From positions 1 through 54,716 of the forward strand of contig QHYZ01000075.1 of assembly GCA_003225295.1 (NCBI GenBank): a stretch of DNA of 54,716 nucleotides. The letters are read 5' to 3'. Shown piece by piece: positions 11,396-37,356 of this stretch. The notes under the pieces are model-generated. The model did no database searches, was not told the DNA's origin, and worked only from the letters and a program-made list of their open reading frames with translations. The DNA is from Acidobacteriota bacterium. GTDB lineage: Bacteria; Acidobacteriota; Terriglobia; Acidiferrales; UBA7541. How positions within the stretch are numbered: the first letter of the stretch is position 1; every line of letters begins with the position of its first letter. A program made the translations under genes and the position numbers.

Positions 11396-11404
11396 AAACT
11401 GTCC

Positions 11405-20024: not shown

Positions 20025-20102
20025 GCATTCCCCCTTTAGAACTGCGACACCACACTTCCGACACCCGCTCAGACCGCTCTGGCGGGCGTTCTGCGTGGCG
20101 CC

Positions 20103-21071
20103 CTAGTGGAAAGCGGCGCCCAGCGTGTCAATCAGCAGCCGGATCGCGGTCTGCTCGGTACGTGTGCTGCCATCGCGCATCGGATTTACTTCCACAATAT
20201 CCATCCCCACCAAACGTCCTTTCGACGTCACGCCCTTCAGCAGCCCGTCTATCTCGGAGAAGTTGAGGCCGTCCGGTTCTAGAGTTCCAGTGCCTGGTGC
20301 AAGCGTGGGATCCATCACATCCACATCAAGCGTGATGTAAATGTTTCCGCTGTCCGGAATCTGTGAAAGGACCCACTCGACTCCTTTGCGATGAATTTGC
20401 TCTCCCGTGATGATCGTGGTGTGATCCTTGCGAGCATTCCCCATCGCTTCCTCATCGTTGGCTAGCCCCCGTTGCCCAAGTTGAATCACCTTTTTCACAT
20501 TCGGAAGCCCTACCGCCCGGTTTACCCAAGACGCGTGATCGAGATTTCCGGGCGCTCCGTTCCATGTATCGAGGTGGGCATCAAAGTGGATGACGGTAAC
20601 CGGGATGTTGACGGCGCGTAGTATCGGGAAGGTGATGCTGTGATCTCCCCCCAATACAATCGGAAAGGCTCCCTTGGAACGAATCTTCCGTACCATTTCG
20701 GTGATCTTGTCGCCCGTCTGCGATGGAACGGTAGGCATTATGGGCACGTCGCCGACGTCCACCCAGTGTTTGCCTTTGAGAACCGTGCTGTCCCGGTCGA
20801 TGTAGTAGAAGCCTTCAGTGAGATCGTGATTGTATTCTTGAGAACTCTCGCGCATGCCGCGGGGACCGTACCGCTCACCCGGCCAGCCCCAGGTTCCTTC
20901 GTCGAAGGGAACGCCGAGAACCGCGAAATCCGCATGCACGTCGTCCAGATTCGCAACGTAGGGCGCCCCCAGAAACGTGCGGACACCCACAAACGTCGGC
21001 ACTGCTTGGCAGAACGCTGCTGGCGTACAAAAACACACTAGCACCACCAGCGCCACTACTGTTCTGGGCAT
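20103..21071 (-). CDS. Exported agmatinase/arginase-family ureohydrolase
   Basis: A 322-residue ureohydrolase with all metal-binding motifs: G-G-D-H-S (H144), F-D-A-H-L-D (D164, H166, D168) and L-D-V-D-V-M-D-P (D249, D251). This layout fits agmatinase, guanidinobutyrase or related enzymes that release urea from guanidino compounds. It has a clear signal peptide (P-R-T-V-V-A-L-V-V-L-V-C-F-C-T-P-A-A-F-C-Q), unusual because these enzymes are normally cytoplasmic. GGAGG nine bases before the ATG at 21071 supports this start, and it places the signal exactly at the N-terminus. In the operon it lies between the SpdH-like genes and the amidohydrolase. If it makes putrescine from agmatine, the neighbours would act on polyamines. 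Confidence 0.88.
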   Translation of the reverse strand: MPRTVVALVVLVCFCTPAAFCQAVPTFVGVRTFLGAPYVANLDDVHADFAVLGVPFDEGTWGWPGERYGPRGMRESSQEYNHDLTEGFYYIDRDSTVLKGKHWVDVGDVPIMPTVPSQTGDKITEMVRKIRSKGAFPIVLGGDHSITFPILRAVNIPVTVIHFDAHLDTWNGAPGNLDHASWVNRAVGLPNVKKVIQLGQRGLANDEEAMGNARKDHTTIITGEQIHRKGVEWVLSQIPDSGNIYITLDVDVMDPTLAPGTGTLEPDGLNFSEIDGLLKGVTSKGRLVGMDIVEVNPMRDGSTRTEQTAIRLLIDTLGAAFH

Positions 21072-21160
21072 ATGTTTCGGCCTCCGGTTCACATCCACGG
21101 TCTTCCCTTGCCACAACACCCGGCCCCGACAAGCGTTTGGTCTTATTCAACTCATACGGT

Positions 21161-23068
21161 TCACAGGTCCCCCTGGGCGGAAATCTCACGCACGGCACGG
21201 TAGGCCTGGTCGATGGCAATGTTGGTGTAAGCGTGGCCGTCGGCATCCGAATTGGCGATCTTGATTCGGCCAAACGGTTTTCGCCCGATCACACAGGGAC
21301 GTTCAGAATCTGGTCGGTCAAGCGGTTCAAACAGAGGGTTGTATTCGTAAGCGTATCCGTGTGGCCAGCGGTTCACGGTGATGGCTTGAATGTCCCGCGC
21401 AGGATCGAAATCGGTGGTCACAAGCATTCGCGCGAGCTGATCACGGATATTACGTTCAAAGGTCTCGAACGTAGTGGCCAGGAGGTCGGCGCGTCCGGCT
21501 CGGTATTGGTCCTTACAATCCAAGCCAGGACGGCAGGGCGTTCGCATCAAATGGAGAAGGCAGGATTCCTCCGGCGAGCTGGGAAACTTGTAATCTCCGA
21601 TGGAAACGGGAAAATCGAGAGAAAAGGAGGAGAAATAGCCGCCGGGGCAATAGATGTTGTTCAGGCCCAGTTTGTGAAAGGGCTTCCAATTTCGAATCTG
21701 CACGTTGGTATAGACGAGGGGAATCTTCACCGCATAGGCAAGCGCTTCCTTCTGTTTATCGGACATTTCGGGGCATAGATACGGAATCACCATGTTGTAG
21801 CAAGCAAGGATGCATTGCGCCGCTCGGGCCTTGAGTGCCTTGCCGCCGCGGACGTAGGTGACCTCCACCTCCGTCGCGGTTGCTCGATCACCGACGTGGG
21901 CGGCGCGAATTGCCGTGCTATTCAATCGGATACGAACGGGAGAAGCGGGATCGTCGAGTATCGCGTAATTCATTTTCGCGGTGACGATATCCTCCATCGT
22001 TCTTCCCGGAGCGGAGCCTGGTACGAGCGTGCGAACCAGGAGCCGCGCGATCGAGGCGTTACCGTCAGGAAAGTGGAAGATGTACGGCTCGCGCTCTCCA
22101 CGTTCTCGAGGCGGAGCGGGCATGCCCTTGAAGCCCGGGTAACCCATCCCTCTGCAGTTGTCCGCGGAAACGGCGTCAATCCCTACGCCGTAGAGCCCGT
22201 GCGGCGCGGACTGAAAGACCTTAATAACGTCCGCGTGGACTTTTGCAGATCGAAGAAGAAAGTCTTTATAGCTGGTCTTGATCAGCTTGACGCGCTTCTC
22301 TTCGGCGGACAGACTCGGCAAATAATCGACGGCATCGTTTTCCAGGCGGGCCAAGTCCTGGCGCGCGGCTTCATCGATCGGAATTTGAGTGATGGCTTCC
22401 GGAGTCGAGTGAAGGCCGGCGCCGGGCACGAGCCGATCCGCACCAAACGTCTCCTTGTCGAAGAACGTTGCACGCTTCAAATTCATGGACTTGTACAAAT
22501 TCTGGTCGAAGTATTTGTAGAACCGCTGTACGTCGATGCCGATTTCTTTAAGCAGGCCAATGGCTTCGGGGCTATAGTGCCCGGGCCCTTCGATTGATTG
22601 AGTGCCTCCATATCCGATCAGGAGACGGTCGCCGGCGCGAAACTCATTCCGCTTGGCGTGGCCGCCAAAATCATCATGATTATCGAGGATAAGAATCCTG
22701 GCTTTGGACCCGAAAGACTTGCGGAAGAAGTACGCGGCAGAAAGGCCGCTCATTCCGCCGCCTACCACGACGAGGTCGAAAGTCTCCTTTTCCTCCTGGG
22801 CTTCGGGCCATTGCTTGCGATCGCGCAGTGAGTGAGCAACTTCGAACGATCCCGGGTGGCTGCCGCGCAAACCAGTTTTGGATGGTGGATAGTAGTGGGG
22901 GTCTTTTTCGGGCGCGAAGGCGGTGTCAGGCACGCGAATTACGTCAAGCAGGACCGGGTCGGTACCAAGCAAGGAGAAGCCCACGGTAATCCCAACGCCG
23001 TTCAGAAAGTCTCGGCGGGTAATATTCGAGCTCATTCCCAAGTCACGATCGCGTCTTTTCCTGCTCAT
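21161..23068 (-). CDS. SpdH-type FAD-dependent oxidoreductase, paralogue 1
   Basis: A 635-residue flavoprotein with a Tat-like N-terminus (T-R-R-D-F-L-N-G, residues 17-24). The dinucleotide fold follows: V-V-V-G-G-G-M-S-G at ~100-108 and the acidic-end block L-D-N-H-D-D-F-G-G-H-A-K-R-N-E-F (128-143). Conserved later blocks are F-P-D-G-N-A-S-I-A-R-L-L-V-R and the C-terminal N-R-W-P-H-G-Y-A-Y-E-Y-N-P. The pattern matches what I know of spermidine dehydrogenase SpdH, a FAD/heme b enzyme that cleaves spermidine; the family call is firmer than the substrate. It lies 11 bases after paralogue 2, in tandem, and GAGGGG precedes its ATG. The heme ligand cannot be located with confidence. Confidence 0.75.
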   Translation of the reverse strand: MSRKRRDRDLGMSSNITRRDFLNGVGITVGFSLLGTDPVLLDVIRVPDTAFAPEKDPHYYPPSKTGLRGSHPGSFEVAHSLRDRKQWPEAQEEKETFDLVVVGGGMSGLSAAYFFRKSFGSKARILILDNHDDFGGHAKRNEFRAGDRLLIGYGGTQSIEGPGHYSPEAIGLLKEIGIDVQRFYKYFDQNLYKSMNLKRATFFDKETFGADRLVPGAGLHSTPEAITQIPIDEAARQDLARLENDAVDYLPSLSAEEKRVKLIKTSYKDFLLRSAKVHADVIKVFQSAPHGLYGVGIDAVSADNCRGMGYPGFKGMPAPPRERGEREPYIFHFPDGNASIARLLVRTLVPGSAPGRTMEDIVTAKMNYAILDDPASPVRIRLNSTAIRAAHVGDRATATEVEVTYVRGGKALKARAAQCILACYNMVIPYLCPEMSDKQKEALAYAVKIPLVYTNVQIRNWKPFHKLGLNNIYCPGGYFSSFSLDFPVSIGDYKFPSSPEESCLLHLMRTPCRPGLDCKDQYRAGRADLLATTFETFERNIRDQLARMLVTTDFDPARDIQAITVNRWPHGYAYEYNPLFEPLDRPDSERPCVIGRKPFGRIKIANSDADGHAYTNIAIDQAYRAVREISAQGDL

Positions 23069-23079
23069 GGACGGTCCCC

Positions 23080-25068
23080 TCAGGCGCTGTTGGCAATCCC
23101 CTCTTTGATGGAAACAACTTCTTGGACGGCCCGATAGGCCTGGTCAATGGCCGTGTTGGTGTAGGCGTGACCGTCGGAGTCCGAATTGGCGATGGTGATC
23201 CTGCCGAATGGTTTGCGGCCTAGGACGCAGGGGCGCGCTGACACGGGCCGGTCCTGCGGCTCGAACAAAGGGTTGTATTCATAAGCGTAGCCGTGCGGCC
23301 ATCGGTTAACCGTGATCGCTTGGATGTCTCGCGCAGGATCAAACCCCCCAGCGGCAAGCATGCGGCCTAGTTGATCACGAATTTTCCGTTCGAAGGTTTC
23401 AAACGGCGTCGTGAAAAGTTCGTAGCGCCCGGCTTTGAACTGATCCTTGCAGGGGAGGCCGGGGCTGCAAGGAGTGCGGACCAGGTGCAGGATACAAGGC
23501 TCTTCGGGCGAACTTGGAAATTTATACTTTCCGATCGAAACCGGGAAATCCAAAGTCGTCGAGCAGAAATAGCTACTGGGCGCGTAAATGTAACTTACAC
23601 CGAGCTTTTGAAAAGCCGTCCAATTGCGGATTTGAACATTCGTGTAAACGAGCGGTTGTTTTACCGCGTAGGCGAGGGCTTCCTTTTGCTCTTCCGGCAT
23701 CTCCGGACACAAATACGGAACGACACAATTGTAGCAGGCCAAAACGCTATGTGAACCGCGCACCTTGCGTGCCTTCCCATCAGTGACATACGTAATCTCG
23801 AGTTCTTTCGCTGTCGATGGTTCTCCGACATGTTTTGCCGCTATCCCAGTGCTGTTCAGACGGATGCGCACAGGATTCCGCGGATCGTCCAAACGCGCGT
23901 AGTTCATTTTTGCCGTGACAATGTCCTCCATCGTGTGTCCGGGGGCGGAATCCGGAATCAGAGTGCGCACCAGCAATCGTGCTATGGACGCGTTGCCATC
24001 CGGAAAGTGAAAAATGTATGGTTCTTCTTCTCCCTCCCCTTCCTGAGCCTCAGACCTTCGGCGCGGAGTGGCCTTCACTCCCTTGAACCCCGGGTACCCC
24101 ATACCTCGACATGCCTGTGCCGAGACGGCATCGATGCCCACACAATAAAGGTCATGAGTGGATGATTGAAAAACCTTGACTACATCTGGATGGACCGTCG
24201 CGAATTGCAGAAGGAAATCTTTGTAGCTCGTCTTAGTCAGCTTTGCGCGCGTCTGGTGGGGATCCAGGTCTGGAAGGTAATCGATCGACTCCGTCTGTAG
24301 ACGCAAGATGTCCTTGCGCGCGGCCTCCGCGATCGGTATCTGCGCGAGTGCTTCCAGAGTTACGGTTTTGCCTCCGGAATATGTTTCGTCGTAACCAACA
24401 ATCACATTCGGCCACAGCAGATCCTGACCGAAGGTTTCTCTATCAAAGAAGGTCGCGGACTTCAGGTGCATCGATTGGAACAGTTTCTGGTCGTAGTATT
24501 TGTAGAATCGGTGAGTGTCGATACCCAACTCCTTCAGCAGGCCAATCGATTCCTTGCTGTAGTGGCCGGGTGCTTCGATGGATTGTGTACCGCCGTATCC
24601 CAGCAACAGACGATTCCCGGCTCGGAACTCGTTGCGTTTGGCATGACCGCCGAAGTCATCATGATTGTCGAGGATTAGAATCTTGGCCCGAGGCCCGACG
24701 GATTTTCGATAGAAATACGCGGCCGCGAGCCCGCTGATGCCTCCACCCACCACAATTAGGTCATAGTGTTCTTTTGTGTCGATCGCATCGAGGGAAGCCT
24801 TCCCATCCCGCAAGCCGTGAGCTGCCTCAAACGAACCGGGGTGACTCCCACGCATGCCGGTCAGGGCGGGCGGATAGTACCGCGGGTCCTGCGGTGTGAT
24901 ACCCTTCGACAAGAAATATTCCTGGGCTGAGGGATCTGGCCCGGGGTCTTGTCCTAGCAACCTCTCAAACGGCAAGAGCGAACTGCCAATCGTTAGAGCC
25001 ACGCCGTTCAAGAAGTCTCGACGGTCGATCGGGCGTCCTTTCTTCTTGTCGCCATCGCGCTTACTCAC
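23080..25068 (-). CDS. SpdH-type FAD-dependent oxidoreductase, paralogue 2
   Basis: A 662-residue homologue of paralogue 1, the longest of the four. Tat-like R-R-D-F-L-N-G is at 17-23, the FAD motif V-V-G-G-G-I-S-G at ~106-113, and L-D-N-H-D-D-F-G-G follows. It shares with paralogue 1 the Y-G-G-T-Q-S-I-E block and a Y-T-N-V-Q-I-R-N-W segment, so the two are the closest pair and look like a tandem duplication. It differs by an acidic insert (E-G-E-G-E-E-E) near residue 330. Translation starts at GTG 25068 with AGAGGAA upstream. It is 104 bases downstream of the TonB receptor gene. Confidence 0.75.
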   Translation of the reverse strand: MSKRDGDKKKGRPIDRRDFLNGVALTIGSSLLPFERLLGQDPGPDPSAQEYFLSKGITPQDPRYYPPALTGMRGSHPGSFEAAHGLRDGKASLDAIDTKEHYDLIVVGGGISGLAAAYFYRKSVGPRAKILILDNHDDFGGHAKRNEFRAGNRLLLGYGGTQSIEAPGHYSKESIGLLKELGIDTHRFYKYYDQKLFQSMHLKSATFFDRETFGQDLLWPNVIVGYDETYSGGKTVTLEALAQIPIAEAARKDILRLQTESIDYLPDLDPHQTRAKLTKTSYKDFLLQFATVHPDVVKVFQSSTHDLYCVGIDAVSAQACRGMGYPGFKGVKATPRRRSEAQEGEGEEEPYIFHFPDGNASIARLLVRTLIPDSAPGHTMEDIVTAKMNYARLDDPRNPVRIRLNSTGIAAKHVGEPSTAKELEITYVTDGKARKVRGSHSVLACYNCVVPYLCPEMPEEQKEALAYAVKQPLVYTNVQIRNWTAFQKLGVSYIYAPSSYFCSTTLDFPVSIGKYKFPSSPEEPCILHLVRTPCSPGLPCKDQFKAGRYELFTTPFETFERKIRDQLGRMLAAGGFDPARDIQAITVNRWPHGYAYEYNPLFEPQDRPVSARPCVLGRKPFGRITIANSDSDGHAYTNTAIDQAYRAVQEVVSIKEGIANSA

Positions 25069-25172
25069 GGCATTCCTCTGTTCACCAAATGGAGCGGCGC
25101 AATCTGACTCTGGGAAAGAAGAACGTAGGCCGACCGGGTGTGAACGGTCCGCCCGCGCATCGGGTGTAGAAG

Positions 25173-28100
25173 CTAAAACGTCAGCTTTAGCGCCAACTGA
25201 AGGATCCTGGGATCATACGTTCCGGTAATTTCGCCGAACGTTCCGGAGCTAAAAGAGCTGGATGCCGGCGGCCGGAATTCGGTGTGATTGAAAAGATTGA
25301 AGGCCTCGACGCGAAAGATGAGTTTTGCTCGCTCACCTACGAGGTTGGTCGTCTTTTCCAGTGCCAAGTCCATATTGACGCGCCTCGGCCCGCGGAAAGA
25401 GTTTCTCCCGAAGGTGCCGTACGTCGGGGCTGGACATGCTCCCGCCGCCCCCGAGCCTGGAATGGCGGAGCTGAAAAAGCAATCCGGTACAGTGAAGTCG
25501 TTAGGGTCGAACCAGTAATTCCCGGGAGTTCCGTTGAAAGTTTGTACTTGATGCGGATCAAATGTATGTATCGAACTAGTGATCTGATCGGCTCTTACTA
25601 CTCCTTGATCGCCGGCACCAGAGGGACCGGGGGTGCTCGATCGGTGGGACAGACCAGCCCTAACATCGAGGGGAATGCCGGACTGCGCGAAAAGAATGGG
25701 ATACAGACTCCAACTCGTTGTCAACCGCTTGGGCCCGCTCGACCAGAGCCGGGCGAATGGCAGTTCCCAACCGCCGCTGAAGGTCAAGCGCTGCCGGATG
25801 TCGAAGTTGGAGTTGCCGTAGAATTGATGATGATTGTAGGACGCACTTTGCCCGCTACGCGAGTTGAATCCAGATCCATCATCCAGATTGTGGGACCAGG
25901 TATACGCGAGCGTGAAGAACACTTGGCCGAGATAACGCACATCGGTTTCTCTCTTCGAAAGGCTCACCAGCAGGCCGTTATAGTTTGCGTTGTTCAGTCC
26001 GTCAAAGGTGGTCGCATATCCGTAGGTGTTATGCGCAAGTCCTTGCCCTTCGTTCAGGACTCGGTTGTTGGTTCCCGGAATCACGGGGTTTGCGTCGACC
26101 CACGTCAGCAGCCGGTGCGAGGAACTCCCAGCGTAGCCGATTTCGGCCATGAGGCCGTTTGCCACTTGGCGCTGAACACTGAGGTTGTACTGATAAATGT
26201 ACGGGGTCTTGAGGTGGACGTTAACAAAGTTATTGGAAGGCCCGAAACGAGGGAGGAATCCCGCCGCGAAAAAGTCAACATTCGTGGGCGGTGGTATTAC
26301 CGAAGGGAAAGGATCGACGGCGCCGCCGGTCTCGTACGGGTGCGACAGTATGGTGCTTGCCGGGTCCGTGGGCAGCGTAGGGACCATGCTGGGGTCAAAG
26401 AAGAAGTCGGCGCCTCCCGCGAAGGGAGGCTCGTCGGTCGCCCAATCCGACATCCAGCCATTCAGAGTGTCGTAGAACATACCGAAACCGCCGCGTAGGC
26501 TGGTCTGCCCACTCCCAAAGGGATCCCAAGCAAAGCCGAACCGCGGGGCAAAATTCTTGCGGTCCGGGAAATACCAGCCCTTTGGCGCACCCGAATCGCC
26601 TGGGAATACCAGCCCTAGTGGCGCATTCACGAACCTCTTCGACTGAAGGCCCGGGATAATGCTGAAGGTATATCCCTTCGTATCTGTTTCCGGAGTGGTG
26701 TACTCGTAACGGAGCCCCAGCGTCAGGGTGAGGCGCGGCGTAACCTTCCATTCGTCCTGCGCAAATAGCGCGTATTGCCTTTGGTGCTCATTATCCGGAG
26801 CCTTGGAGTATTCGAAGAATTCGTCCGAAGCGCCGAACAAAAAGTCGGCCAGGTCATTTCCGGATCCGATACCGTCCGGTCCGGAGAAGACAAAAGCTCC
26901 GTTGGTCTGGTAGGCATAAACCGTATTCGCCTGGAAAATCGCAAACCGTCCACCAAACTTCCAGTTGTGGCGGCCCCGATTCCAGGTCAGCGTGTCCGTA
27001 AAAGCATAGGTATTGTCAGCCTTCCAGTGAATGTTTGGGTCGAAGCCAAGGGAGAGGCCGCTAGCAAAGTAAAGGTTTGGCGTGCCGAAGGGATCGTCCG
27101 ATTGGATATTTACGCCCAAAGCCGCCACTGTCGGCGGGTGAGATGCCGCAAGTTGCGTCTGGTACCAACGCTGTCCGGTGGCGTGAAACTCGTTCAGCAT
27201 GCTGGGCGAAAGCGTTTTCGTATAGCCCACATTCGTAAAATAGTCCCAGTCCGTTGTATTAGCGGTGAAGCCCGGAACGTTGGCCCCAGAAAACGGATTG
27301 AATACAGGTCTCTTGTTATATCCGACGGTGAGCGAGATGCGGTCGTTCTGCGTCGCATAGAAATCGAACTTACCTGTGTATTGGTATGGATTCTCTGTTC
27401 CCGACCCTAGGGGAAATACTTGTCCAGTTGGGGACGTGGGGATCAAGCCGGCTGCGATACAGTTTTGCGCAACAGGATTGATGGTCGTGGGATCGATGAT
27501 CGCTTGTGCTGCCTTAGCGGGATCTGACTGGTAAAACGGGTGGCTCTGAAGAAACGCGGCCACCCCTGGATCAGGTCCCGAGCCGTTGAAATTCGAGAAG
27601 TCGCCGGTTAGTTGAGCTGGGGTGTAGGTCGTGACGAATCCTAATCCTTGATTCCCCGTTTCCGTCAGTCGCTGCCCCTGGTAGCCAAAGAAAAAGAAGA
27701 ACCGGTCTTTGCCATCAATCAACTTGGGAATCGTAATCGGACCGCCGATCGTGCCCCCAAACTGATTGCGCTTGAGGACCGGGCGGGGGTTGCCCTGTGC
27801 GTTGTCGAAGAAATCGCTAGCGTTTAACGCGTCGTTGCGTAGGTAATCATACAGGCTCCCATGGAGGGAATTTGTGCCCGACTTGGTAACCACACTGATC
27901 GTGCCGCCGCCGTTGCGTCCGTATTCCGCCGTATAGTTATTTTCCAGGAGACGGAACTCCGCGACGTCTTCTGGATTCGGATTAAAGACAACTTGATTGC
28001 TGGTCACCCGATTGTTGACGCCGCCGTCGAGCAGATACGTGACCGAGTCTCCGCGTCCCCCCGCCACGCTGATACCATCGAAGCCGTTCGATCCCCCGTT

Positions 28101-28658
28101 GCTTGTGCCGTAAGTTCCCAGGTCGTCGGCAATCGGAACCACGCCGGGCTGCGTCAGAGCCAGATCCAGCGTATTTCGGCCGTTGAGCGGCAGATTCTGG
28201 ATCGGTGCGCCGGTGACCGTCCCTCCGAGAGTGGCGTTAACGGTTTCCACTTGTGCCGCCTGCGCTTCGACTCTAACCACGTCCGTTAGCGAGCCGACCT
28301 TCATGTGCACATCGATTCTCAGCGCTTGGTTGATGTCCAGGGGTTCCGCTGCCGTCACCACTTTGGAAAAACCCTCATGTTCTGCGCCGACCGAATAGGT
28401 GCCTACCGGGAGCTCCAAGACCTGGTAGTAGCCGTCACCACTGGTGACTGTGTTCCAATGCACGTTCGTGCCGGTATTGGTCACCGTAACCTTGGCACCA
28501 GCGATGGCCGCACCTTGCGCATCGGTTACCGTTCCGATGATTCGGCCAGTGGCGTTTTGCGCGGTTGTAGAATTACAGATAAGCAGAAGTCCGACCAAAG
28601 CCAACAGGAGGTATCGCAAACCGCGACAATCAAGAAACAAAATGCGTGTGCCGATCAT
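25173..28658 (-). CDS. TonB-dependent receptor, Oar-like, with CarbopepD regulatory domain
   Basis: A 1161-residue outer-membrane receptor. A signal peptide (about 1-34, ending S-T-T-A-Q) is followed by a carboxypeptidase-regulatory-like domain (about 38-120, G-R-I-I-G-T-V-T-D-A-Q-G-A). A plug region follows (L-P-L-N-G-R-N-T-L-D-L, F-R-L-L-E-N-N-Y-T-A-E-Y-G-R-N-G-G-G) and a long barrel ending L-Q-L-A-L-K-L-T-F. This class is abundant in Acidobacteriota and imports or binds oligomeric substrates with TonB energy. GGAGGG six bases before the ATG at 28658 fixes the start. It heads a leftward unit with two SpdH-like enzymes, a ureohydrolase and an amidohydrolase, which suggests it supplies their substrate. 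Confidence 0.9.
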   Translation of the reverse strand: MIGTRILFLDCRGLRYLLLALVGLLLICNSTTAQNATGRIIGTVTDAQGAAIAGAKVTVTNTGTNVHWNTVTSGDGYYQVLELPVGTYSVGAEHEGFSKVVTAAEPLDINQALRIDVHMKVGSLTDVVRVEAQAAQVETVNATLGGTVTGAPIQNLPLNGRNTLDLALTQPGVVPIADDLGTYGTSNGGSNGFDGISVAGGRGDSVTYLLDGGVNNRVTSNQVVFNPNPEDVAEFRLLENNYTAEYGRNGGGTISVVTKSGTNSLHGSLYDYLRNDALNASDFFDNAQGNPRPVLKRNQFGGTIGGPITIPKLIDGKDRFFFFFGYQGQRLTETGNQGLGFVTTYTPAQLTGDFSNFNGSGPDPGVAAFLQSHPFYQSDPAKAAQAIIDPTTINPVAQNCIAAGLIPTSPTGQVFPLGSGTENPYQYTGKFDFYATQNDRISLTVGYNKRPVFNPFSGANVPGFTANTTDWDYFTNVGYTKTLSPSMLNEFHATGQRWYQTQLAASHPPTVAALGVNIQSDDPFGTPNLYFASGLSLGFDPNIHWKADNTYAFTDTLTWNRGRHNWKFGGRFAIFQANTVYAYQTNGAFVFSGPDGIGSGNDLADFLFGASDEFFEYSKAPDNEHQRQYALFAQDEWKVTPRLTLTLGLRYEYTTPETDTKGYTFSIIPGLQSKRFVNAPLGLVFPGDSGAPKGWYFPDRKNFAPRFGFAWDPFGSGQTSLRGGFGMFYDTLNGWMSDWATDEPPFAGGADFFFDPSMVPTLPTDPASTILSHPYETGGAVDPFPSVIPPPTNVDFFAAGFLPRFGPSNNFVNVHLKTPYIYQYNLSVQRQVANGLMAEIGYAGSSSHRLLTWVDANPVIPGTNNRVLNEGQGLAHNTYGYATTFDGLNNANYNGLLVSLSKRETDVRYLGQVFFTLAYTWSHNLDDGSGFNSRSGQSASYNHHQFYGNSNFDIRQRLTFSGGWELPFARLWSSGPKRLTTSWSLYPILFAQSGIPLDVRAGLSHRSSTPGPSGAGDQGVVRADQITSSIHTFDPHQVQTFNGTPGNYWFDPNDFTVPDCFFSSAIPGSGAAGACPAPTYGTFGRNSFRGPRRVNMDLALEKTTNLVGERAKLIFRVEAFNLFNHTEFRPPASSSFSSGTFGEITGTYDPRILQLALKLTF

Positions 28659-28961
28659 AATGTGCCCTCCAGATTTCATCACAAGACTGCGCGAGGCTCT
28701 TGTCATGGGAGTTAACCTAGAATTGAAAACCAAAAACGCTTCTGGGCGAGGATATTGCGATGTAGCCATGCGTGCATGAATGGCACAAAGGAAAAGGAAG
28801 GCAGGGGCGAGACGTCACGTTGTGCCGTCGAGTAAGTCGACAGGCACTCGTCAAGGAAGAACGTGTGTTTCATGGAAACCGCCTCAACCCTGAGCGATTC
28901 CTCGAGCATCGCTTGTCCAACCCTGGGCACAGCAAGGACCCAACCTTACTATAATCGTGGA

Positions 28962-28990
28962 ACCTTAGGGAAATCACTGTCGCGTGTCAA
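28962..28990 (-). promoter_or_regulatory. Sigma70-type promoter candidate for the TonB/SpdH operon
   Basis: On the minus strand: TTGACA (28985-28990), exactly 17 bases, then TAAGGT (28962-28967), with the preceding word TTTTCGC. The -35 is consensus; the -10 is weak. A TATAGT 13 bases downstream could also take part. The same -35/spacer/-10 arrangement recurs at 31070-31098. It leaves a leader of about 300 bases before the receptor gene; nothing else was recognised in this gap. Confidence 0.5.
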
Positions 28991-29016
28991 GCGAAAACTG
29001 TGGGCAGAGCAAGAAA

Positions 29017-30963
29017 CTAGGCAAGCTCCTGAACGGCTCGGTAGGCTTGGTCAATCGCCTGGTCGGTGTAGGCCGCGGCTGCGGCGTCGGAGTTGGCGAT
29101 CGCGATCCGCCCCAAGCGTTTCCTCGCAAGGTCGCAGGGTCTTTGTCCATCAGGCCAATCGGGATCCCAAAGTGGGTTGTACTCGTAGGCATAACCATGC
29201 GGCCACCGATTGACGGTGATGGCCTCGATGTCTCTGGCGGGATCGAAACCTCCCGCCGATAAAATGCGCGACAACTGATCGCGGATATTGCGCTCGAACG
29301 TTTCGAATGGCGTCGACAGCAATTCTCCGCGCCCGACCCGATGCTGATCTCGCTCCGAGAGTCCCGGCATGCATGGCGTGCGCGTCATGCGCAGCAGCAC
29401 GGGCTCATCCGGTGTTTGGGAACATTTGTAACCGCCGATGCTGACCGGCTGATCCAGGCCGACGCCAGTGTGATACATCCCAGGAGCGGAAACGCGTTGA
29501 ATTCCCAAGGTGTGAAAGGCCTTCCAGTTCTTGACGGCGACTACGCTATATACCAAGGGAACCTTCGACCCATACCGGAGGGCCTCCTTCTGTGCGTCCG
29601 GCAATTCCGCACAAAGGTACGGTATCATCATGTTCCAGCAAGCCAACACCGTGCCTTTGGCGCGGACGTTGTATATCTTTTTCTCGCGAGCATAACTGAC
29701 TTCTACTTCTTTCGCCGACGCGGGATTGCCGATATGTCGCACCCGCAGTGCTGTACTGCTCAATCGAATCCGCACGGAAATGTTGTTCCTATCAAGCTTC
29801 GCGTAGTCGAACTTCGCCGTGACGATATCTTCGGCCGTATGGCCAGTTGCCGCCTCAGGGATGAGCGCCTTTACGACTGCCCGCGCGATCGAAGCGTTTC
29901 CGTCTGGAAAGTGGAAGTGATAGGGTTCCTTTTCGGGTGTGGCTTCCCCCGTCGCGGTGAAACCCATGCGACGGTAAGGACCCGGCGCGATGCCCATTCC
30001 CTGGAAACCGGGGAAACGAAGGCCCCAACAATCGAGCGCCGAAACTCCGTCGATCCCCACTCCAAACAGTCCGTGCGTCCGGGTTTGGTAGAACGGAATC
30101 ACGCCAGGATTGACTTTGACCAGCTTCAGAAGAAAATCCTTGTAGCTCATTCGAGACAACTTTTCCTTTTTTTCGTCGGAAGAAATTCCTGGTAGATAAT
30201 CGACCTTCACTTCCTGTAGGTGGGCGATGTCTTTCTGGACGGTTTCACTAAGGGGTGTTTTCGCGAGGAAGTCGGACCAAGAAACCGTACCTTGCTTGCC
30301 GAACGGGGCCGGCCCTCCGATCACAAGACGGTCTGTCCCGAATGTTTCCTTGTCGAAGAAGTAAGCCGATTTGAGGCCTTTGTACACCTTGCTGTCGTCG
30401 TACTTCTCTTCGAACTTAGCGGGCTCTATTCCTAGTTCCGTAAGCAAGCCGCGTGCTTCGGCACTGTAAGGAAACGGCGATTCGATCGAAACTGTGCCAC
30501 CGTTGGCGAGCAGCATGCGGCCGTTGACATGAAACTCGTTGCGCTTGGCATGACCGCCAAAATCGTCGTGATTGTCCAGAATCAGTATTCGCGCGGCAGG
30601 ATTCTGTTTGCGGTGAAAATAAGCTGCGGCTAAGCCGCTGATGCCGCCGCCCACGATGACCAGGTCATAGGTCTCCCCGGTTTCGATCGGAGAGCCCGCG
30701 TTGTTCCAGAAATTACCGTCGCGGGCAGAATGAGCGGATTCGAATGATCCGTCATGGCTTCCGCGCATGCCCGTGCGAGTTGGGGGGTAGTAGCCCGGCT
30801 TGTCTTGAGCAAATTGTTCCGCGCCTTCCGCCATCCATTCGAGCCCGGGCAGGAAACCTACAGCCCTGGTCGTGCCTACGGTCATCGCCAGGCCATTCAG
30901 AAAGTCACGCCGCCCGATGGGCCGGTTCATACCCAAATATTTGTCCCTATTCTCATCCGTCAC
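29017..30963 (-). CDS. SpdH-type FAD-dependent oxidoreductase, paralogue 3
   Basis: A 648-residue member of the same family. Tat-like G-R-R-D-F-L-N-G lies at 17-24 and the FAD motif V-G-G-G-I-S-G at ~104-110, with L-D-N-H-D-D-F-G-G-H-A-K. It pairs with paralogue 4 by the N-G-G-T-(V/F)-x-I-(E/D)-S-P block in place of Y-G-G-T-Q-S-I-E. The GTG at 30963 (GAGGG six bases upstream) is preferred over a start 22 codons earlier because it gives the same N-terminal layout as the other three. It appears to be transcribed from its own promoter at 31070-31098 and may run on into the TonB unit, although a 358-base gap with a promoter intervenes. Confidence 0.75.
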   Translation of the reverse strand: MTDENRDKYLGMNRPIGRRDFLNGLAMTVGTTRAVGFLPGLEWMAEGAEQFAQDKPGYYPPTRTGMRGSHDGSFESAHSARDGNFWNNAGSPIETGETYDLVIVGGGISGLAAAYFHRKQNPAARILILDNHDDFGGHAKRNEFHVNGRMLLANGGTVSIESPFPYSAEARGLLTELGIEPAKFEEKYDDSKVYKGLKSAYFFDKETFGTDRLVIGGPAPFGKQGTVSWSDFLAKTPLSETVQKDIAHLQEVKVDYLPGISSDEKKEKLSRMSYKDFLLKLVKVNPGVIPFYQTRTHGLFGVGIDGVSALDCWGLRFPGFQGMGIAPGPYRRMGFTATGEATPEKEPYHFHFPDGNASIARAVVKALIPEAATGHTAEDIVTAKFDYAKLDRNNISVRIRLSSTALRVRHIGNPASAKEVEVSYAREKKIYNVRAKGTVLACWNMMIPYLCAELPDAQKEALRYGSKVPLVYSVVAVKNWKAFHTLGIQRVSAPGMYHTGVGLDQPVSIGGYKCSQTPDEPVLLRMTRTPCMPGLSERDQHRVGRGELLSTPFETFERNIRDQLSRILSAGGFDPARDIEAITVNRWPHGYAYEYNPLWDPDWPDGQRPCDLARKRLGRIAIANSDAAAAAYTDQAIDQAYRAVQELA

Positions 30964-31069
30964 GAGAAACCCTCTTCCAGTTCGAAGATCCAACAAAAGG
31001 AAGTGCGATACAGCAGACGGGACGCCCAATCTCTACTATAAGAATGCAAGGTTTGTCTGCTGTCGAGGA

Positions 31070-31098
31070 ACCTTAGAGAAGTCGGCTTCCGCTGTCAA
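31070..31098 (-). promoter_or_regulatory. Sigma70-type promoter candidate for SpdH paralogue 3
   Basis: Minus strand TTGACA (31093-31098), 17 bases, TAAGGT (31070-31075). The block TAAGGTTCC is identical to that in the promoter at 28962-28990, so the two share more than a generic consensus. Confidence 0.5.
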
Positions 31099-31250
31099 GA
31101 CAAAATCATGACTAGGCGCAACACTGGTTATGGCGACGCTGCCCCCGTTCACAACGTGCCGTCCCGAAATCCGGCAGCCCCTGCCCAAACCTTTTTCATC
31201 CTCCAGCACTCGTCTCACTTCTCCTGTGGCCCCGCCTGGTTGCTTGAAAG

Positions 31251-31710
31251 CTACATCGCGCTCCGCCAAACGATCTTCCCGTCCATCACCGTCATCCAGA
31301 CGCGGATGTCTCTGCCATCGACGAACAACTTGGTACCGCCGAGCCTCAGCCAGTCGTCACCAGAGCCTGTACGCGGGCCGTAATTGATGACGAACTGCTG
31401 AAAAGCTGAGTCTGTTCCGCTGAAGATGATTTGGTAACGCAGGCGCAAGGGCGCCCTTCTTCATGAAGTCTTGCATCACCTCTGCAACGGATTGCTCGCG
31501 GACTTCGTATGAGGGAGGCGGAATAGCGGACAGCCACACCCCAGGCATCTCTTGAATACACCCGGCTGGCTCGCCTGTTTTCGGATCGTGAGAGATGTTT
31601 CCACCGCGCGGAGGGACAGTGTTTCGACCGATTCCCAGACGTGAACGTGCGCGCTCTCGCGCCGGACCGCTGCGTTGTCGGGCCCACCCGCATCCAGCTG
31701 TTGCCGCGTT
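31251..31710 (-). pseudogene. Amidohydrolase relic
   Basis: Fragments of a YtcJ-like amidohydrolase spread over three frames. Near 31610-31690: Q-Q-L-D-A-G-G-P-D-N-A-A-V. About 31560-31620: I-S-H-D-P-K-T-G-E-P-A-G followed by P-P-P-S-Y-E-V-R-E-Q-S-V-A-E-V-M. Next L-R-Y-Q-I-I-F, then G-D-D-W-L-R-L-G-G-T-K-L-F-V-D-G, which jumps directly to the C-terminal D-I-R-V-W-M-T-V-M-D-G-K-I-V-W. The metal-site core between these is deleted. It lies immediately downstream of the aminotransferase gene in the same direction, so the operon once ended with a further amidohydrolase. Confidence 0.75.
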
Positions 31711-31746
31711 GGGGAGTACCTGCCCCCCACTCACCGGCTCCCACGC

Positions 31747-33081
31747 CTAATGCGTGACAGCCTCGTCCATGGACTCCAGTCCTCGATCGATAATTGCAAA
31801 GGCCTCGCGGAGTTCTTTCTCCGTGATGCAGAGCGGCGGATTTGTGAAGAAGGTATTCCAGCGTACCAACGTGTAGAGACCCTGCTCGCGGAAGAACTTT
31901 CCTAAGGCCGCCATTTCTTCGGAGCTGTCGTTGAAAGGCGCCATTGGCTCGCGCGTGCGACGATTACGCACCAACTCCACGATGCCGAAGAGGCCAATCG
32001 AGCGCACCGCGCCGACGGAAGGATGGCGGGACTCTAGGTCGCAAAGCAACAGCTTCATCACGTGGCCCATTTTTCTTGCATTTTCAAGAAGCTGGTCCTC
32101 TTCATAGACGCGGATCGTTGCCAGTGCCGCGGCGCACCCCATCGGGTGGCTGTTGTAGGTGAGCCCGCCGTAGAAGACTTTGTCTTGAAAATGCCGCGCG
32201 ATGTGATGGCGCATTCCGACAGCACCCAGCGGTAGGTAGCTGCTGGTCAGCCCTTTTGCCATGGTGATCAGGTCCGGCACGACCTTCCAGTGGTCTATGG
32301 CGAACCACTCGCCGGTGCGTCCAAAGCCGGACATAATCTCGTCCGCAATCATCAGAATGCGGTGCTTGTTGCAGATTTCGCGCACGCCTTGGATGTAGCC
32401 GTCCGGCGGCACAAGGACTCCATTCGTGCCGGTAACCGGCTCCAAGATAAAAGCCGCGATCGTTTGTGGTCCTTCGAGTTGGATCACTTCTTCGATGTTA
32501 GCCAGAGCTTGCTCGACCGAATCCCAACCCCGTTCGATGCCATGATATGGATCGAAAACACGGATGACGCCCGGAACGCCGGGTTCGGTGGACCATCGTC
32601 GCGGATCGCCGGTGAGGGAGATACTTCCAGCTGTAGCGCCATGGTAAGAACGGTAACGCGCCAGGATCTTGTGGCGTCCCGTGAAAAAGCGTGCGATTTT
32701 GACGGCATTCTCATTCGCTTCCGAACCTCCATTGGTAAAAAAAAAGGTATCGATGTCCCCGGGTGTGATTTCCGCGAGTTTGGCACCCAACCGTGCTCGC
32801 GGTTCCGTGGCCATGAATGGATTGGCATACGCCAGCGTGGAGGCCTGCTGGTGGATCGCTTCGATGACCCGCGGATCGCCATGTCCTATGTTTACACTCA
32901 TCAATTGGCTGTTGAAATCAATGAAGCGCTTACCCTCGGAAGTCCAGAAGTAGATACCTTTGGCTTTCGCTACCGGCAAGGGGTCGACTTTCGATTGTGC
33001 AGACCACTCATACAGAGTGTGCTTCTTTGAGAGGGCCACCATTTCTTCGCCGCTCATCGCGGGTACTACTTTTGTCGTCAC
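31747..33081 (-). CDS. Class III PLP-dependent aminotransferase
   Basis: A 444-residue fold-type I aminotransferase of the class III (omega-amino acid) group. Cofactor residues are visible: F-F-T-N-G-G-S-E-A-N-E-N-A (about 114-126), Y-H-G-A-T, the Asp of I-A-D-E-I-M-S-G-F-G-R-T-G (D247), and the Schiff-base Lys in M-A-K-G-L-T-S-S-Y (K276). The family includes putrescine, GABA, beta-alanine and taurine aminotransferases; the exact amine is not readable. There is no signal peptide, so it acts in the cytoplasm. A GTG start at 33081 has GAGG upstream. It lies 42 bases downstream of SpdH paralogue 4 and would handle amine or aminoaldehyde-derived products. Confidence 0.88.
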   Translation of the reverse strand: MTTKVVPAMSGEEMVALSKKHTLYEWSAQSKVDPLPVAKAKGIYFWTSEGKRFIDFNSQLMSVNIGHGDPRVIEAIHQQASTLAYANPFMATEPRARLGAKLAEITPGDIDTFFFTNGGSEANENAVKIARFFTGRHKILARYRSYHGATAGSISLTGDPRRWSTEPGVPGVIRVFDPYHGIERGWDSVEQALANIEEVIQLEGPQTIAAFILEPVTGTNGVLVPPDGYIQGVREICNKHRILMIADEIMSGFGRTGEWFAIDHWKVVPDLITMAKGLTSSYLPLGAVGMRHHIARHFQDKVFYGGLTYNSHPMGCAAALATIRVYEEDQLLENARKMGHVMKLLLCDLESRHPSVGAVRSIGLFGIVELVRNRRTREPMAPFNDSSEEMAALGKFFREQGLYTLVRWNTFFTNPPLCITEKELREAFAIIDRGLESMDEAVTH

Positions 33082-33123
33082 GTCAAAACCTCGTCCGAAA
33101 ATGTAATTTTGTTGCGAAGTCTA

Positions 33124-35073
33124 TTACTCGCTCACAAGTTCTTGTACGGCGCGGTGCGCCTGGTCGATGGCCACGTCCGAATAGGCGGTCGCACCGGAAT
33201 CGGTGTTGGCAATTGTGATTCTACCGAACTTCTTTCTCCCGACTACATTGGGGCGCTCGGCCTCGGGCCAATCCGGATCAAAGAGCGGGTTGTATTCATA
33301 TCCGTATCCGTGCGGCCACCGGTTCACCGTAATCGCTTGAATGTCATCCGCCGGATCAAAACCACCCGGAGCAAGAATACGGGCGAGCTGGTCTCGCGTC
33401 TTGCGTTCGAAGTCCTCGAACGACGTGACCAATAGCTCCATGCGGCCAGCTATGTGCTGTTCGCGGGCCGGGAGCCCGACCTTGCAGGGCGTGCGGCTGA
33501 GGTGCAATAGAATTGGTTCGTTTGGTGATGTCGGGCTGTGATAGTCGCCGATGTTTATGGGCGCATTCAAACTGATGGACTCCCAGTAGCCGCCGGGTGC
33601 GCTCACACTTTGTATGCCGAGCTTTTGAAATGCAATCCAGTTCCGGATGCCCACGCTGCAATATACCAGAGGCACCTTGACCAGGTAGTGCAGCGCTTGT
33701 TTCTGCTTCTCCGGAAGTTCCGGACAAAGATACGGGATCATTACGTTCCAGCAGGCCAGCACGCATCCTTTTGCGCGGACCTTAGACACCTGTTTCCCTT
33801 GCGCGTAGGTAACTTCCACTTCGCCGGCAGAGGCGGGGCTGCCGATGTTTCTTGCGGCAACCACAGTGCTATTCAGGCGAAGCCGAATGGGAGAACTCGA
33901 GTGATCCAATCGGCCGTATTCCACCCTTGCGGTCACTACGTCCTCAACCGTGTGGCCAGGGACGGCTTCGGGTATCAGATTGCGAACGAGCAGACGCGCG
34001 ATGGAAGCATTTCCGTCCGGGAAATGGTATCTGTACGAACCACCGTTTGCATAGCCTGCTGCGGAGTAGCTCATATTCGCAGCAGCGCCCCGGTCGAGGT
34101 GCATTCCCTGAAATCCCGGCAGCCCAAGGGCCCAGCAGTCCAAGGCCGGCTCGGCGTCGATTCCGACACCCCACTCCCCGTGGGTGCGTGTCTGGTAGAA
34201 CGCGGCTACGCCGGGATCAGCCTTCACGACGTCCAACAAGAAGTCGCGGTAGCTGATCTTCGCAAGCCGTGCTTTCTTCTCCGCCGACGACAAACCCGGC
34301 ATGTAGTCGACCTTTGATTCTTCAATCCTCACGATGTCGCGCCGAACGGCTTCGGACAGGGGCGCATCCGCGAGAAAGTCATCCCAGGAACGGGTTTTCT
34401 CGCTCTTACTGCCCCGACGACCATGTGGTTCACCGACCAAGAGTTTGTCCGAGCCGAATTTTTCTTTGTTAAAGAAAACTGCAGACTGCAATCCTAATGA
34501 GCGGTACAGCTTGTGATCGGTCGTGGTTTCGTCAAGTCTTGGCGGATCGATCCCGAGTTTTTTCAACAATCCGTCGGCCTGCGAACTATAGGGCGTCGGG
34601 CTGTCGATCAGAAACGTGCCGCCGTTACATAACTGCAACTTTCCCCCGAGGTGGAACTCGTTGCGTTTCGCGTGACCACCGAAGTCGTCATGATTTTCTA
34701 GAATGAGAATGCGGGCCGATTTCCCGACACGCTCCTGAAAGAAATGTGCCGCCGAGAGACCGCTGATACCGGCGCCCACGACGACAAGGTCGTAGACTTC
34801 TTTCGTATCGATTGGCGGAGCGGCTGTATTCCAAAACGTGCCGTCGCGGAGACTATGGGCCGTCTCGAACGAACCCGCATGACTTCCCCGCAGGCCGATC
34901 AGCTTCGGCGGGTTATAGTCCGCTTGGCTGTGTGGCTCTGTCTCGGCAGAGCTGCCGGATAAAGTGGCGCCCCCAAGTAAAGTACCGCCCACCATTACCG
35001 CCGCGCCGTTTATGAAATCGCGGCGCGTGATGGCCCGACCCATTCCCAGATACCAGTCTCGGTCATCGTTCAT
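33124..35073 (-). CDS. SpdH-type FAD-dependent oxidoreductase, paralogue 4
   Basis: A 649-residue member. The N-terminus T-R-R-D-F-I-N-G (16-23) is Tat-like, and the FAD motif reads V-V-G-A-G-I-S-G (~98-105), Ala replacing the second Gly of the others. L-E-N-H-D-D-F-G-G-H-A-K-R-N-E-F follows. It is closest to paralogue 3 (C-N-G-G-T-F-L-I-D-S-P). Conserved late blocks F-P-D-G-N-A-S-I-A-R and N-R-W-P-H-G-Y-G-Y-E-Y-N-P are intact, so nothing suggests loss of function. AGAGGA precedes the ATG at 35073. It is in one leftward unit: amidohydrolase, SnoaL-like protein, this gene, aminotransferase. Confidence 0.75.
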   Translation of the reverse strand: MNDDRDWYLGMGRAITRRDFINGAAVMVGGTLLGGATLSGSSAETEPHSQADYNPPKLIGLRGSHAGSFETAHSLRDGTFWNTAAPPIDTKEVYDLVVVGAGISGLSAAHFFQERVGKSARILILENHDDFGGHAKRNEFHLGGKLQLCNGGTFLIDSPTPYSSQADGLLKKLGIDPPRLDETTTDHKLYRSLGLQSAVFFNKEKFGSDKLLVGEPHGRRGSKSEKTRSWDDFLADAPLSEAVRRDIVRIEESKVDYMPGLSSAEKKARLAKISYRDFLLDVVKADPGVAAFYQTRTHGEWGVGIDAEPALDCWALGLPGFQGMHLDRGAAANMSYSAAGYANGGSYRYHFPDGNASIARLLVRNLIPEAVPGHTVEDVVTARVEYGRLDHSSSPIRLRLNSTVVAARNIGSPASAGEVEVTYAQGKQVSKVRAKGCVLACWNVMIPYLCPELPEKQKQALHYLVKVPLVYCSVGIRNWIAFQKLGIQSVSAPGGYWESISLNAPINIGDYHSPTSPNEPILLHLSRTPCKVGLPAREQHIAGRMELLVTSFEDFERKTRDQLARILAPGGFDPADDIQAITVNRWPHGYGYEYNPLFDPDWPEAERPNVVGRKKFGRITIANTDSGATAYSDVAIDQAHRAVQELVSE

Positions 35074-35092
35074 GAACTCGTTCCTCTATGCA

Positions 35093-35626
35093 TCACAAAC
35101 CGTTGCGTCCGTGCAGCGGAACAAACAGCAGTCGTCGCGTGGACAATCTTTCACCCTGCTGTGCTTTCTTTTTGGGAGCTGGAGAATAGTGCAGGAAAAC
35201 AATCTTCCAAACGCCGCCTCGGTTGAAGAAGACGTCTGATTCCTGGTTGTCTTCCTCCGATACTTCTCCCTTCGCGCTACGCGTGCGCGCGCGAAGGATA
35301 TAGCTGGCCACAGCCGTATCACCGCTGGGACCGACCTGGACGTGCAAATCCGAATGGGTGGCAGATTCTACTCGCCCCCCACCCTGAATGAATCGTGTCC
35401 AATCCTTCTGGTAGGTAGGGAGGTCGGTGCGGCCTTCGGGTAACCACTGCGAGAAGTCCGGCGCGTAGTAAGAGAAGTATGCGGGCAGATCGTTGGCAGC
35501 GTAGGCGCCGTTAACCTTATCTTCAAGTTCGCGGATCTGTTGTTCTGGATTCCCCGGCGGCGTTTTCGCCACCAAAGTGAGCAGACCACCGGCCAACAAT
35601 AGAATCACAATCAGCCTGATTTTCAT
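35093..35626 (-). CDS. Exported SnoaL/DUF4440-like (NTF2-fold) protein
   Basis: A 177-residue protein with a signal peptide (K-I-R-L-I-V-I-L-L-L-A-G-G-L-L-T-L-V) followed by a cone-shaped NTF2-like domain: E-L-E-D-K-V-N-G-A-Y-A-A-N-D-L-P-A-Y-F-S-Y-Y-A-P-D-F near the start and V-W-K-I-V-F-L-H-Y-S near the end, the usual first helix and last strand of DUF4440. Members range from small-molecule isomerases to ligand-binding proteins, so no reaction is assigned. The ATG at 35626 with GAGGTG upstream is used rather than a start 32 codons earlier. It is 19 bases from SpdH paralogue 4 and probably acts in the same periplasmic pathway. Confidence 0.78.
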   Translation of the reverse strand: MKIRLIVILLLAGGLLTLVAKTPPGNPEQQIRELEDKVNGAYAANDLPAYFSYYAPDFSQWLPEGRTDLPTYQKDWTRFIQGGGRVESATHSDLHVQVGPSGDTAVASYILRARTRSAKGEVSEEDNQESDVFFNRGGVWKIVFLHYSPAPKKKAQQGERLSTRRLLFVPLHGRNGL

Positions 35627-35703
35627 GTAGCACCTCGCGCGTTTGGAATGCATGTCAAGGACCGAACCAAATCGTGCCACTCGAACTTCCGAACAAGACT
35701 TGC

Positions 35704-37356
35704 TCAAGACTCGTACACCCATTTTCCGCCCGTCATGGTGCGTTCGATGGGAATGTCAACCAACTTCGATGGATCCTCACGGAAAGGATCGCGCCCGAGT
35801 ACAACAAGATCGGCTAGCTTTCCCGGCTCAATCGAACCCTTGAGCCTCTCTTCGTAGGAGGCGTGCGCGCCGTTGATGGTTCCCACCCGGATCGCCTCCT
35901 CTACGGAAATTCGCTGCGAAGCGCCCCAGACGTTGCCGTCCATGTCGGTACGGGTGACTTCGGATTGCAGAGCCATCATGGGAGGAAACTCACCCGGTGG
36001 ATAGTCCGAGGCTTGGGTGGGCCGCAAGCCCGCGTCCAGAAAAGTCCGCAGAGCGAACATGTGCTCCAGACGCTCCTTGCCGTAATACCGCATTTTTTCT
36101 CCGTGGTAGTAGACATACGTCGAGAAAGGCGTGGGAATGACACTCAATGCTTGCATGCGTTTAATGATCGAATCCGTGATCAGCGTGCAATGCTCGATGC
36201 GGAAGCGTGGATCCTTGCGAGGGATCTCGCTGTTCAAGCGTTCGTATACGTTCAAGACTCTTTCGATCGCGACATCACCGTTCGCATGCGTCCCGAGTTG
36301 CCAACCCGCGGCGTAGGCTTTTCGTCCGTTTTCATACAATTCCTCTTCACTTGCAGAAAACGTTCCATAGTCATCTTTAGAACCAATGTAGGGTTGCGAA
36401 AGCCTTGCGGTGCGCCCTGAAACCGCACCGTCAGCGACCTGCTTCATTCCTCCAACGCGCACCCATTCGCTGCCGAATCCTGTGCGGACGCCCGATTCAA
36501 GCATCTTGTCGATGCTTCCGGCGTTGATAAAACAATAGACGCGCATTCCCAGATCACCGGAATCGTGGGCGTCTTGATACGCCTGAAGATCCAGTGGACC
36601 TCCCAGAGCATCGCCCACGGAGGTGATTCCAGTCTGGGTCATCGCTTTGGAAATGAACTTCACACCTTCGCGGTAGTCGTTCCGTGTGAAGCTCGAAGGG
36701 ATGAGCTTTTGAAGCGACGCGCCCGCGCGCTCAATGATCCGGCCGGTGAGATGTCCCGAGGAATCTCGGTCATATTTTCCGCCAGGCGGGTCCGTTATGT
36801 TGTCATCGATGCCCGCCAACTTGAGCGCCATTGAGTTTACAAACCTTTCGTGACCTCCCCGATGCGTAACCAGTACGGGATGATCCGGCACGGCTTCATC
36901 CAGGTCTTTGAAGAGAAGCTTTCGTCCTTCCGACGTTTTCGTGTCGTCGTACTTGAAACCGAGGACCCATTGTCCTGGAGCGGTCTTGGCTGCCCGTTCG
37001 CGAAGCGCCTGCTGAATCGCCTTGATGGAACGGAGATCGCAATCCACGTTTCGCAGGTGCGAGCGGCCGGAGGAGGCAGGGTGCGCGTGGGCATCAATGA
37101 ATCCTGGTAAAACGGTTTTTCCGACCAAGTCGAGTTTCCGGCTTCGGGAACTTGCCAGATGAAGAACCTCGTCGTCCGAACCCACGGCCAGGAAGCGACC
37201 GTCGCTGATCGCGACCGCTTGGGCCCGGGGATTGTGCGGGTCGACAGTCCAAAAATTTCCGTTGTGGAGAACTAGGTCAGGCTCCACGCGTTCCAACGGC
37301 AGAAGGGTGAAAGCCCCAAGTGTTACCAGGAAACTGCGACGCGATGTTTCTATCAT
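35704..37356 (-). CDS. Tat-exported amidohydrolase, YtcJ-like (Amidohydro_3)
   Basis: A 550-residue metal hydrolase with a twin-arginine start (T-S-R-R-S-F-L-V-T-L-G-A). Blocks: L-V-L-H-N-G-N-F-W-T-V-D, the metal pair P-G-F-I-D-A-H-A-H-P, K-Q-V-A-D-G-A-V-S-G-R-T-A, H-A-N-G-D-V-A-I-E-R-V, R-I-E-H-C-T-L-I, and the C-terminal G-K-L-A-D-L-V-V-L-G-R-D-P. Tat export implies a folded or metal-loaded enzyme, unlike the Sec-type signal of the amidohydrolase at 18300-20024. GGAGAG five bases before the ATG at 37356 sets the start. It heads the leftward unit running through the SnoaL-like protein, SpdH paralogue 4 and the aminotransferase. Confidence 0.9.
   Translation of the reverse strand: MIETSRRSFLVTLGAFTLLPLERVEPDLVLHNGNFWTVDPHNPRAQAVAISDGRFLAVGSDDEVLHLASSRSRKLDLVGKTVLPGFIDAHAHPASSGRSHLRNVDCDLRSIKAIQQALRERAAKTAPGQWVLGFKYDDTKTSEGRKLLFKDLDEAVPDHPVLVTHRGGHERFVNSMALKLAGIDDNITDPPGGKYDRDSSGHLTGRIIERAGASLQKLIPSSFTRNDYREGVKFISKAMTQTGITSVGDALGGPLDLQAYQDAHDSGDLGMRVYCFINAGSIDKMLESGVRTGFGSEWVRVGGMKQVADGAVSGRTARLSQPYIGSKDDYGTFSASEEELYENGRKAYAAGWQLGTHANGDVAIERVLNVYERLNSEIPRKDPRFRIEHCTLITDSIIKRMQALSVIPTPFSTYVYYHGEKMRYYGKERLEHMFALRTFLDAGLRPTQASDYPPGEFPPMMALQSEVTRTDMDGNVWGASQRISVEEAIRVGTINGAHASYEERLKGSIEPGKLADLVVLGRDPFREDPSKLVDIPIERTMTGGKWVYES

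Follow-up and report, generated by a model that had tools for sequence, protein, structure and literature searches.

The spermidine dehydrogenase SpdH of Pseudomonas aeruginosa carries its own twin-arginine signal (PMC11107197), ligates heme b through His54 and His562 and has been used in an electrode-based spermine sensor (PMC12564564); in the parts of the literature available it is described with spermidine/spermine activity only. Its structures are deposited as PDB 7d9f-7d9j, of which 7d9i and 7d9j, by their PDB sequences and titles, are the engineered variants D282A and Y443A. A bacterial polyamine oxidase clade that shares 30–75% identity with SpdH and includes acidobacterial members has also been described, and the available part of that source is silent on arrays of several copies, on position-282 subtypes and on gene neighbourhoods (PMC7576179). 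Here the analysis was extended to four SpdH-type genes (S1 to S4) clustered on contig QHYZ01000075.1 of an Acidobacteriota bacterium of the UBA7541 lineage (assembly GCA_003225295.1), the window being the whole 54,716-nucleotide stretch. The four copies stand beside receptors and hydrolases; P. aeruginosa, by contrast, is taken by us to carry a single spdH gene. Spermidine/spermine-active SpdH enzymes oxidise spermidine to 1,3-diaminopropane and 4-aminobutanal. We think it probable, with some reserve, that the locus is a periplasmic amine-catabolism island whose SpdH-type flavohemoproteins have divided substrates among themselves.

All four genes lie on the minus strand, at 21161–23068 (S1, 635 aa), 23080–25068 (S2, 662 aa), 29017–31029 (S3, 670 aa) and 33124–35073 (S4, 649 aa); the listed start codon of S3 is TTG, and its true start is probably further inside the listed open reading frame (ORF). 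Four SpdH-type paralogues had been proposed from the sequence alone in the original prediction, and this was borne out, as were the motifs that it had listed: L[D/E]NHDDFGGHAK and NRWPHGY are present in all four products, YGGTQS in S1 and S2, and NGGT in S3 and S4. In a Pfam scan the FAD Rossmann motif PF13450 scored above its cut-off in each, and an NCBIfam scan of the same proteins gave no match reaching its cut-off. A phmmer search against PDB sequences (E ≤ 0.001), covering S1, S3 and S4, matched solely the four P. aeruginosa SpdH sequences, with best E-values of 2.2e-163, 3.9e-158 and 3.9e-155, respectively; S2 was assigned by alignment to SpdH. Aligned identity to P. aeruginosa SpdH was 47.5% for S1, 45.9% for S2 and 47.3% for both S3 and S4. 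Structure modelling was carried out for S4, and the AlphaFold2 model (pLDDT 83.2) had the SpdH fold, matching the SpdH entries with Z values of 41.4–41.9 over 557–568 aligned residues vs about 21, roughly half as much, for monoamine and putrescine oxidases. Two alternatives raised with the original prediction were thereby ruled out: a different FAD family, by the SpdH-only PDB matches and the S4 fold, and collapsed assembly copies, by a pairwise DNA identity of 58.1–66.0% (54.3–70.2% at the aa level), so that these are distinct genes. There were no internal stops, and dN/dS against orthologues was 0.188 for S1 (against locus L063), 0.085–0.115 for S2, 0.052–0.112 for S3 and 0.069–0.139 for S4. 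The four genes are under purifying selection and all look functional. The SpdH-type complement of the genome (G000) is completed by a distant relative on contig C299 (80604–82484, 30% identical) and a broken one on C327 (37992–39629, 27% identical over 353–596) that is interrupted by a stop codon.

Both heme b ligand histidines are retained in the alignment of all four proteins, as H79 and H570 in S1, H84 and H592 in S2, H100 and H611 in S3, and H73 and H588 in S4, and among the 132 aligned family members His54 is present in 130 and His562 in 131. In computed SpdH numbering, His54 is the histidine of an FEVAH stretch and His562 that of NRWxHGY; the histidine of the RGSH motif was ruled out as a ligand, since this numbering places His54 in FEVAH. 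Tyr443 is conserved in S1, S2, S3 and S4. A twin-arginine motif, RRDF[L/I]NG, was recognized by eye close to the N-terminus of each protein, and a TatC gene is present in the genome.

The copies differ at the position of Asp282, which is retained in S2 alone (D306) and replaced by Gly in S1 (G291), S3 (G320) and S4 (G299); the importance given to this residue is read from the fact that a D282A variant was deposited in the PDB. Across a 132-row tree, position 282 was Asp in 43 members, Gly in 75 and another residue in 14, and 15 residue changes were needed on the tree vs a mean of 48.5 for shuffled labels. By clade, Asp was present in 6/6 members of the S2 group and 30/30 of a group termed D27, which comes mostly from loci with one SpdH copy observed; Gly was present in 9/9 of the narrow S4 group, in six of eight S1-group members (the other two having Asp) and in 11 of 12 S3-group members. 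The twelfth, at 10720–12729 of locus L154 in genome G325, has Asp282 and adjoins a D27-type copy. Five further positions (325, 445, 447, 469 and 496) were at least 75% fixed within each of the five groups (S1, S2, S3, narrow S4 and D27) with at least three residues between groups, S3 and S4 each carrying its own residue set. None of 50 random regroupings gave such a column, a comparison that breaks relatedness and demonstrates only that the groups are distinct.

In this tree, with support expressed as SH-aLRT only and with the long branches L013, L135 (6341), L142 and L081 (9983) and ORFs <600 aa omitted, S1 grouped with S2 in a clade of 14 rows and S3 with S4 in one of 40 rows, each with an SH-aLRT of 99. 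The two pairs in the original prediction thus held; at least two rounds of duplication had been proposed with them, and the splits are not local duplications, as other genomes contain the same groups and members of the S2 and S4 types occur in Proteobacteria. A recent local duplication was likewise ruled out by the trees. A sequence from an alphaproteobacterium falls in the S2 clade, and several from Proteobacteria fall in the wider S4 clade; because these clades reach that phylum, the splits among the copies, as read from the tree, predate this genome. Two alphaproteobacterial contigs, L066 and the similar-looking L068, carry S2-type and S4-type genes, which suggests transfer between phyla.

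The original prediction had placed the array at 21161–35073, and this extent was confirmed for the array itself; the co-directional run is longer (18300–37401) and consists of ten minus-strand genes, from 37401 downward AmhB, Snoa, S4, AT3, S3, TonB1, S2, S1, Agm and AmhA. AmhA (18300–20024) and AmhB (35704–37401) encode Amidohydro_3 hydrolases whose PDB relatives are mostly uncharacterised; AmhA, which shares 84% identity with its counterpart in genome G307 and 95% with that in L063, has a signal peptide by eye, and AmhB a twin-arginine-like N-terminus (SRRSFL). Agm (20103–21119) encodes a ureohydrolase of the Arginase family with a signal peptide by eye and 86% identity to its G307 counterpart. 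TonB1 (25173–28769), between S2 and S3, is a TonB-type receptor with PF25183, CarboxypepD_reg and an outer-membrane barrel; AT3 (31747–33081) is a class III aminotransferase, and Snoa (35093–35722) a DUF4440/SnoaL-like protein with a probable signal peptide by eye. The amine-processing partners had been predicted to be exported, which agrees with the signal peptides of Agm and AmhA and fails for AT3, where none was seen by eye. On the plus strand, 37808–38510 holds a gamma-glutamyltransferase remnant with parts near both ends and no middle, matching residues 31–72 and 387–577 of the L079 protein, so that the window lacks a complete enzyme of this type (TIGR00066). A second receptor with CarboxypepD_reg and a barrel, TonB2 (39963–43910, plus strand), recurs beside SpdH genes in L049, L079, L095/L161 and G307. 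It is followed by a minus-strand regulator (44012–44887) combining MerR and Xre-type helix-turn-helix (HTH) domains with a cupin in one chain, distantly PuuR-like, and with relatives near SpdH genes in L049, L095, L159 and G307. Elsewhere in the window, 3476–7280 (minus strand) encodes an NrfD-like membrane protein and a twin-arginine molybdopterin-type oxidoreductase, as judged from their N-termini only; the contig start (1–969) holds two ORFs that we presume to be pieces of an IS110-type transposase, and a tRNA scan found none.

A search for the same neighbourhood in other genomes, suggested with the original prediction, yielded overlapping pieces of the arrangement. L063 carries TonB1-S2-S1-Agm-AmhA in the same order with 89–95% identity; L046, from the same genus, carries S2-TonB1-S3-AT3-S4-Snoa, where the place expected for S1 is taken by an amino-acid permease truncated at the end of the contig; and L095, judged by length and coordinates to be identical with L161 of G003, a genome also from this genus, carries an AmhB-Snoa-S4-AT3 piece. 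In G307, from another family of the class, four copies lie on one contig and correspond to S4, S3, a D27-type copy and S1, the Asp282 copy being the D27-type one and hence from a different clade than S2. Their partners are TonB2, AmhA, Agm, Snoa, an intact gamma-glutamyltransferase, TonB1, Amidohydro_3 genes and the MerR-Xre-cupin regulator. Three-copy versions were present in L079 and G325. The gamma-glutamyltransferase was intact and above the TIGR00066 cut-off in G307 and L079; that of L049 matched only residues 447–571 of the L079 protein. Among 17 loci with at least two copies, a TonB-type receptor was present in nine, Amidohydro_3 in seven, gamma-glutamyltransferase in five (counting the truncated L049 gene) and Snoa in four, vs seven, one, none and one, respectively, of 65 single-copy loci, the aminotransferase showing no enrichment (3/17 vs 7/65). 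These counts exclude duplicate contigs, loci <9 kb and the window itself, still include L095, a piece of a multi-copy cluster, among the single-copy rows, and were obtained by probing with proteins of the window, a choice biased towards close relatives.

Of the 89 genomes in the window's family, 35 had SpdH-type matches (E ≤ 1e-40), as did 70 of 399 genomes at class level (1e-60) and 31 of 396 at phylum level (1e-100); in the last two scans at most three candidates were scored per genome, so that they give no copy counts. Twelve chosen genomes had one to six SpdH match places each, fragments included, with six full-length in G307. A literature search (titles and the starts of abstracts, with subscription journals thinly covered) found no description of an array of SpdH genes or of this neighbourhood, in agreement with the original prediction, which had known of no described system of this kind; the arrangement is not unique to this genome, given its close relatives and G307. 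The enzyme family is known, and the array and its subtypes were not found described, which is weak evidence of absence.

Some features recall the Puu-type gamma-glutamyl polyamine pathway (PMC9397018 for part of the gene roles), namely the distant PuuR-like regulator of the window, the gamma-glutamyltransferase of related islands and, in the alphaproteobacterial locus L066, a permease, a PuuD-like gene and a DAO-family oxidase beside two S4-type genes and one S2-type gene. The same locus encodes a receptor, assigned by its grouping with the TonB-type protein of L081 when the neighbours of 83 loci were grouped (among the groups listed). The likeness is limited in that neither the PuuR nor the PuuD match reaches its cut-off and the SpdH-type enzymes here bear export signals. 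A Duffyella plasmid carries an Asp282-bearing SpdH-type gene with a c-type cytochrome gene after it.

In the scheme that we infer for transport, order of reactions, substrates and electron acceptor, outer-membrane receptors would import amines or amine conjugates, from which the exported hydrolases (Agm, the two Amidohydro_3 enzymes and, ancestrally, gamma-glutamyltransferase) would free amines. The four Tat-exported SpdH-type enzymes would then oxidise C-N bonds using FAD, the electrons passing via the surface heme b to respiratory cytochromes, and the products would be handled intracellularly by enzymes including the class III aminotransferase. S2, with its Asp282, is most likely a spermidine/spermine-type enzyme, and S1, S3 and S4 most likely diverged toward other amines. 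Such a division of substrates, which the original prediction had proposed to explain the four copies, is favoured because of the Asp282/Gly split and the group-specific positions; the particular amines that it had named are not deducible from sequence. The amine-pathway neighbours, that is the gamma-glutamyltransferase of G307 and L079, the permease, PuuD-like and DAO-family genes of L066 and the Duffyella c-type cytochrome, also count in favour of the island. Several results weigh on the other side: Asp282 is present in 1/12 S3-group and 2/8 S1-group members, and S1 and S2 are identical at all five group-specific positions. Agm scores below the TIGR01230 agmatinase cut-off (155.7 vs 174.3 bits) and is for this reason termed agmatinase-like, the regulator scores below that of PuuR (NF007408; 64.8 vs 211 bits) and carries an extra MerR domain, the PuuD-like protein of L066 scores 180.5 vs a cut-off of 266, and the best PDB sequence match of AT3 is a taurine:2-oxoglutarate aminotransferase. 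Arrays combining Asp282 with other members were no commoner than chance (10/17 vs 8.24 expected, P 0.205, in 17 clusters and 43 genes, with L066 and L068 merged into a single cluster and with L088 and C357, a two-copy contig of G418, omitted), so the idea that every array requires one Asp282 copy is not supported.

These results also bear on other explanations. All four proteins could be spermidine/spermine dehydrogenases, multiplied for dosage, pH range or regulation and with residue differences neutral to specificity, as the conservation of Tyr443, the heme ligands and the motifs in every copy, the SpdH fold of S4, the family-wide variation at position 282 and the agreement of S1 and S2 at the five other positions would allow; we consider this unlikely, as the group-specific residues are preserved across genomes and families and purifying selection acts on the S1/S2 and S3/S4 lineages, which are old. 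The taurine enzyme as closest PDB match of AT3 makes a non-polyamine amine possible as the island's substrate, and an island serving another amine class altogether (for instance plant amines, gamma-glutamyl amides, or short amines including taurine-like ones), with none of the four mainly a polyamine enzyme, would fit the absence of Asp282 from three copies and the mostly uncharacterised relatives of the two Amidohydro_3 enzymes. Against it, S2 retains both Asp282 and Tyr443, and genes resembling agmatinase or Puu genes are present in the window or in close relatives, so that this explanation appears a little less probable again. An assembly artefact or decaying duplicates, which the 385 contigs of the assembly and the adjoining gamma-glutamyltransferase remnant might bring to mind, is already contradicted by the 54–70% aa identity between copies, dN/dS values of 0.05–0.19, the lack of internal stops and a gene order shared with overlapping segments found in other genomes, and has a negligible probability.

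Returning to the amine-catabolism island with divided substrates, the natural subtypes that differ at the residue mutated in SpdH and at five other positions make substrate recognition testable, and subtypes with other substrates would broaden the use of SpdH electrode sensors. We tentatively put forward, as a step further that is more doubtful than the island itself, that the Gly282 groups S1, S3 and S4 may represent undescribed specificities, whose periplasmic substrates would be amines freed by the neighbouring hydrolases from gamma-glutamyl, guanidino and N-acyl conjugates, whereby soil acidobacteria might feed the electrons of several extracellular amines directly into respiration. The array would likewise draw attention to extracellular amines as a source of both nitrogen and electrons for these abundant and poorly understood soil bacteria.

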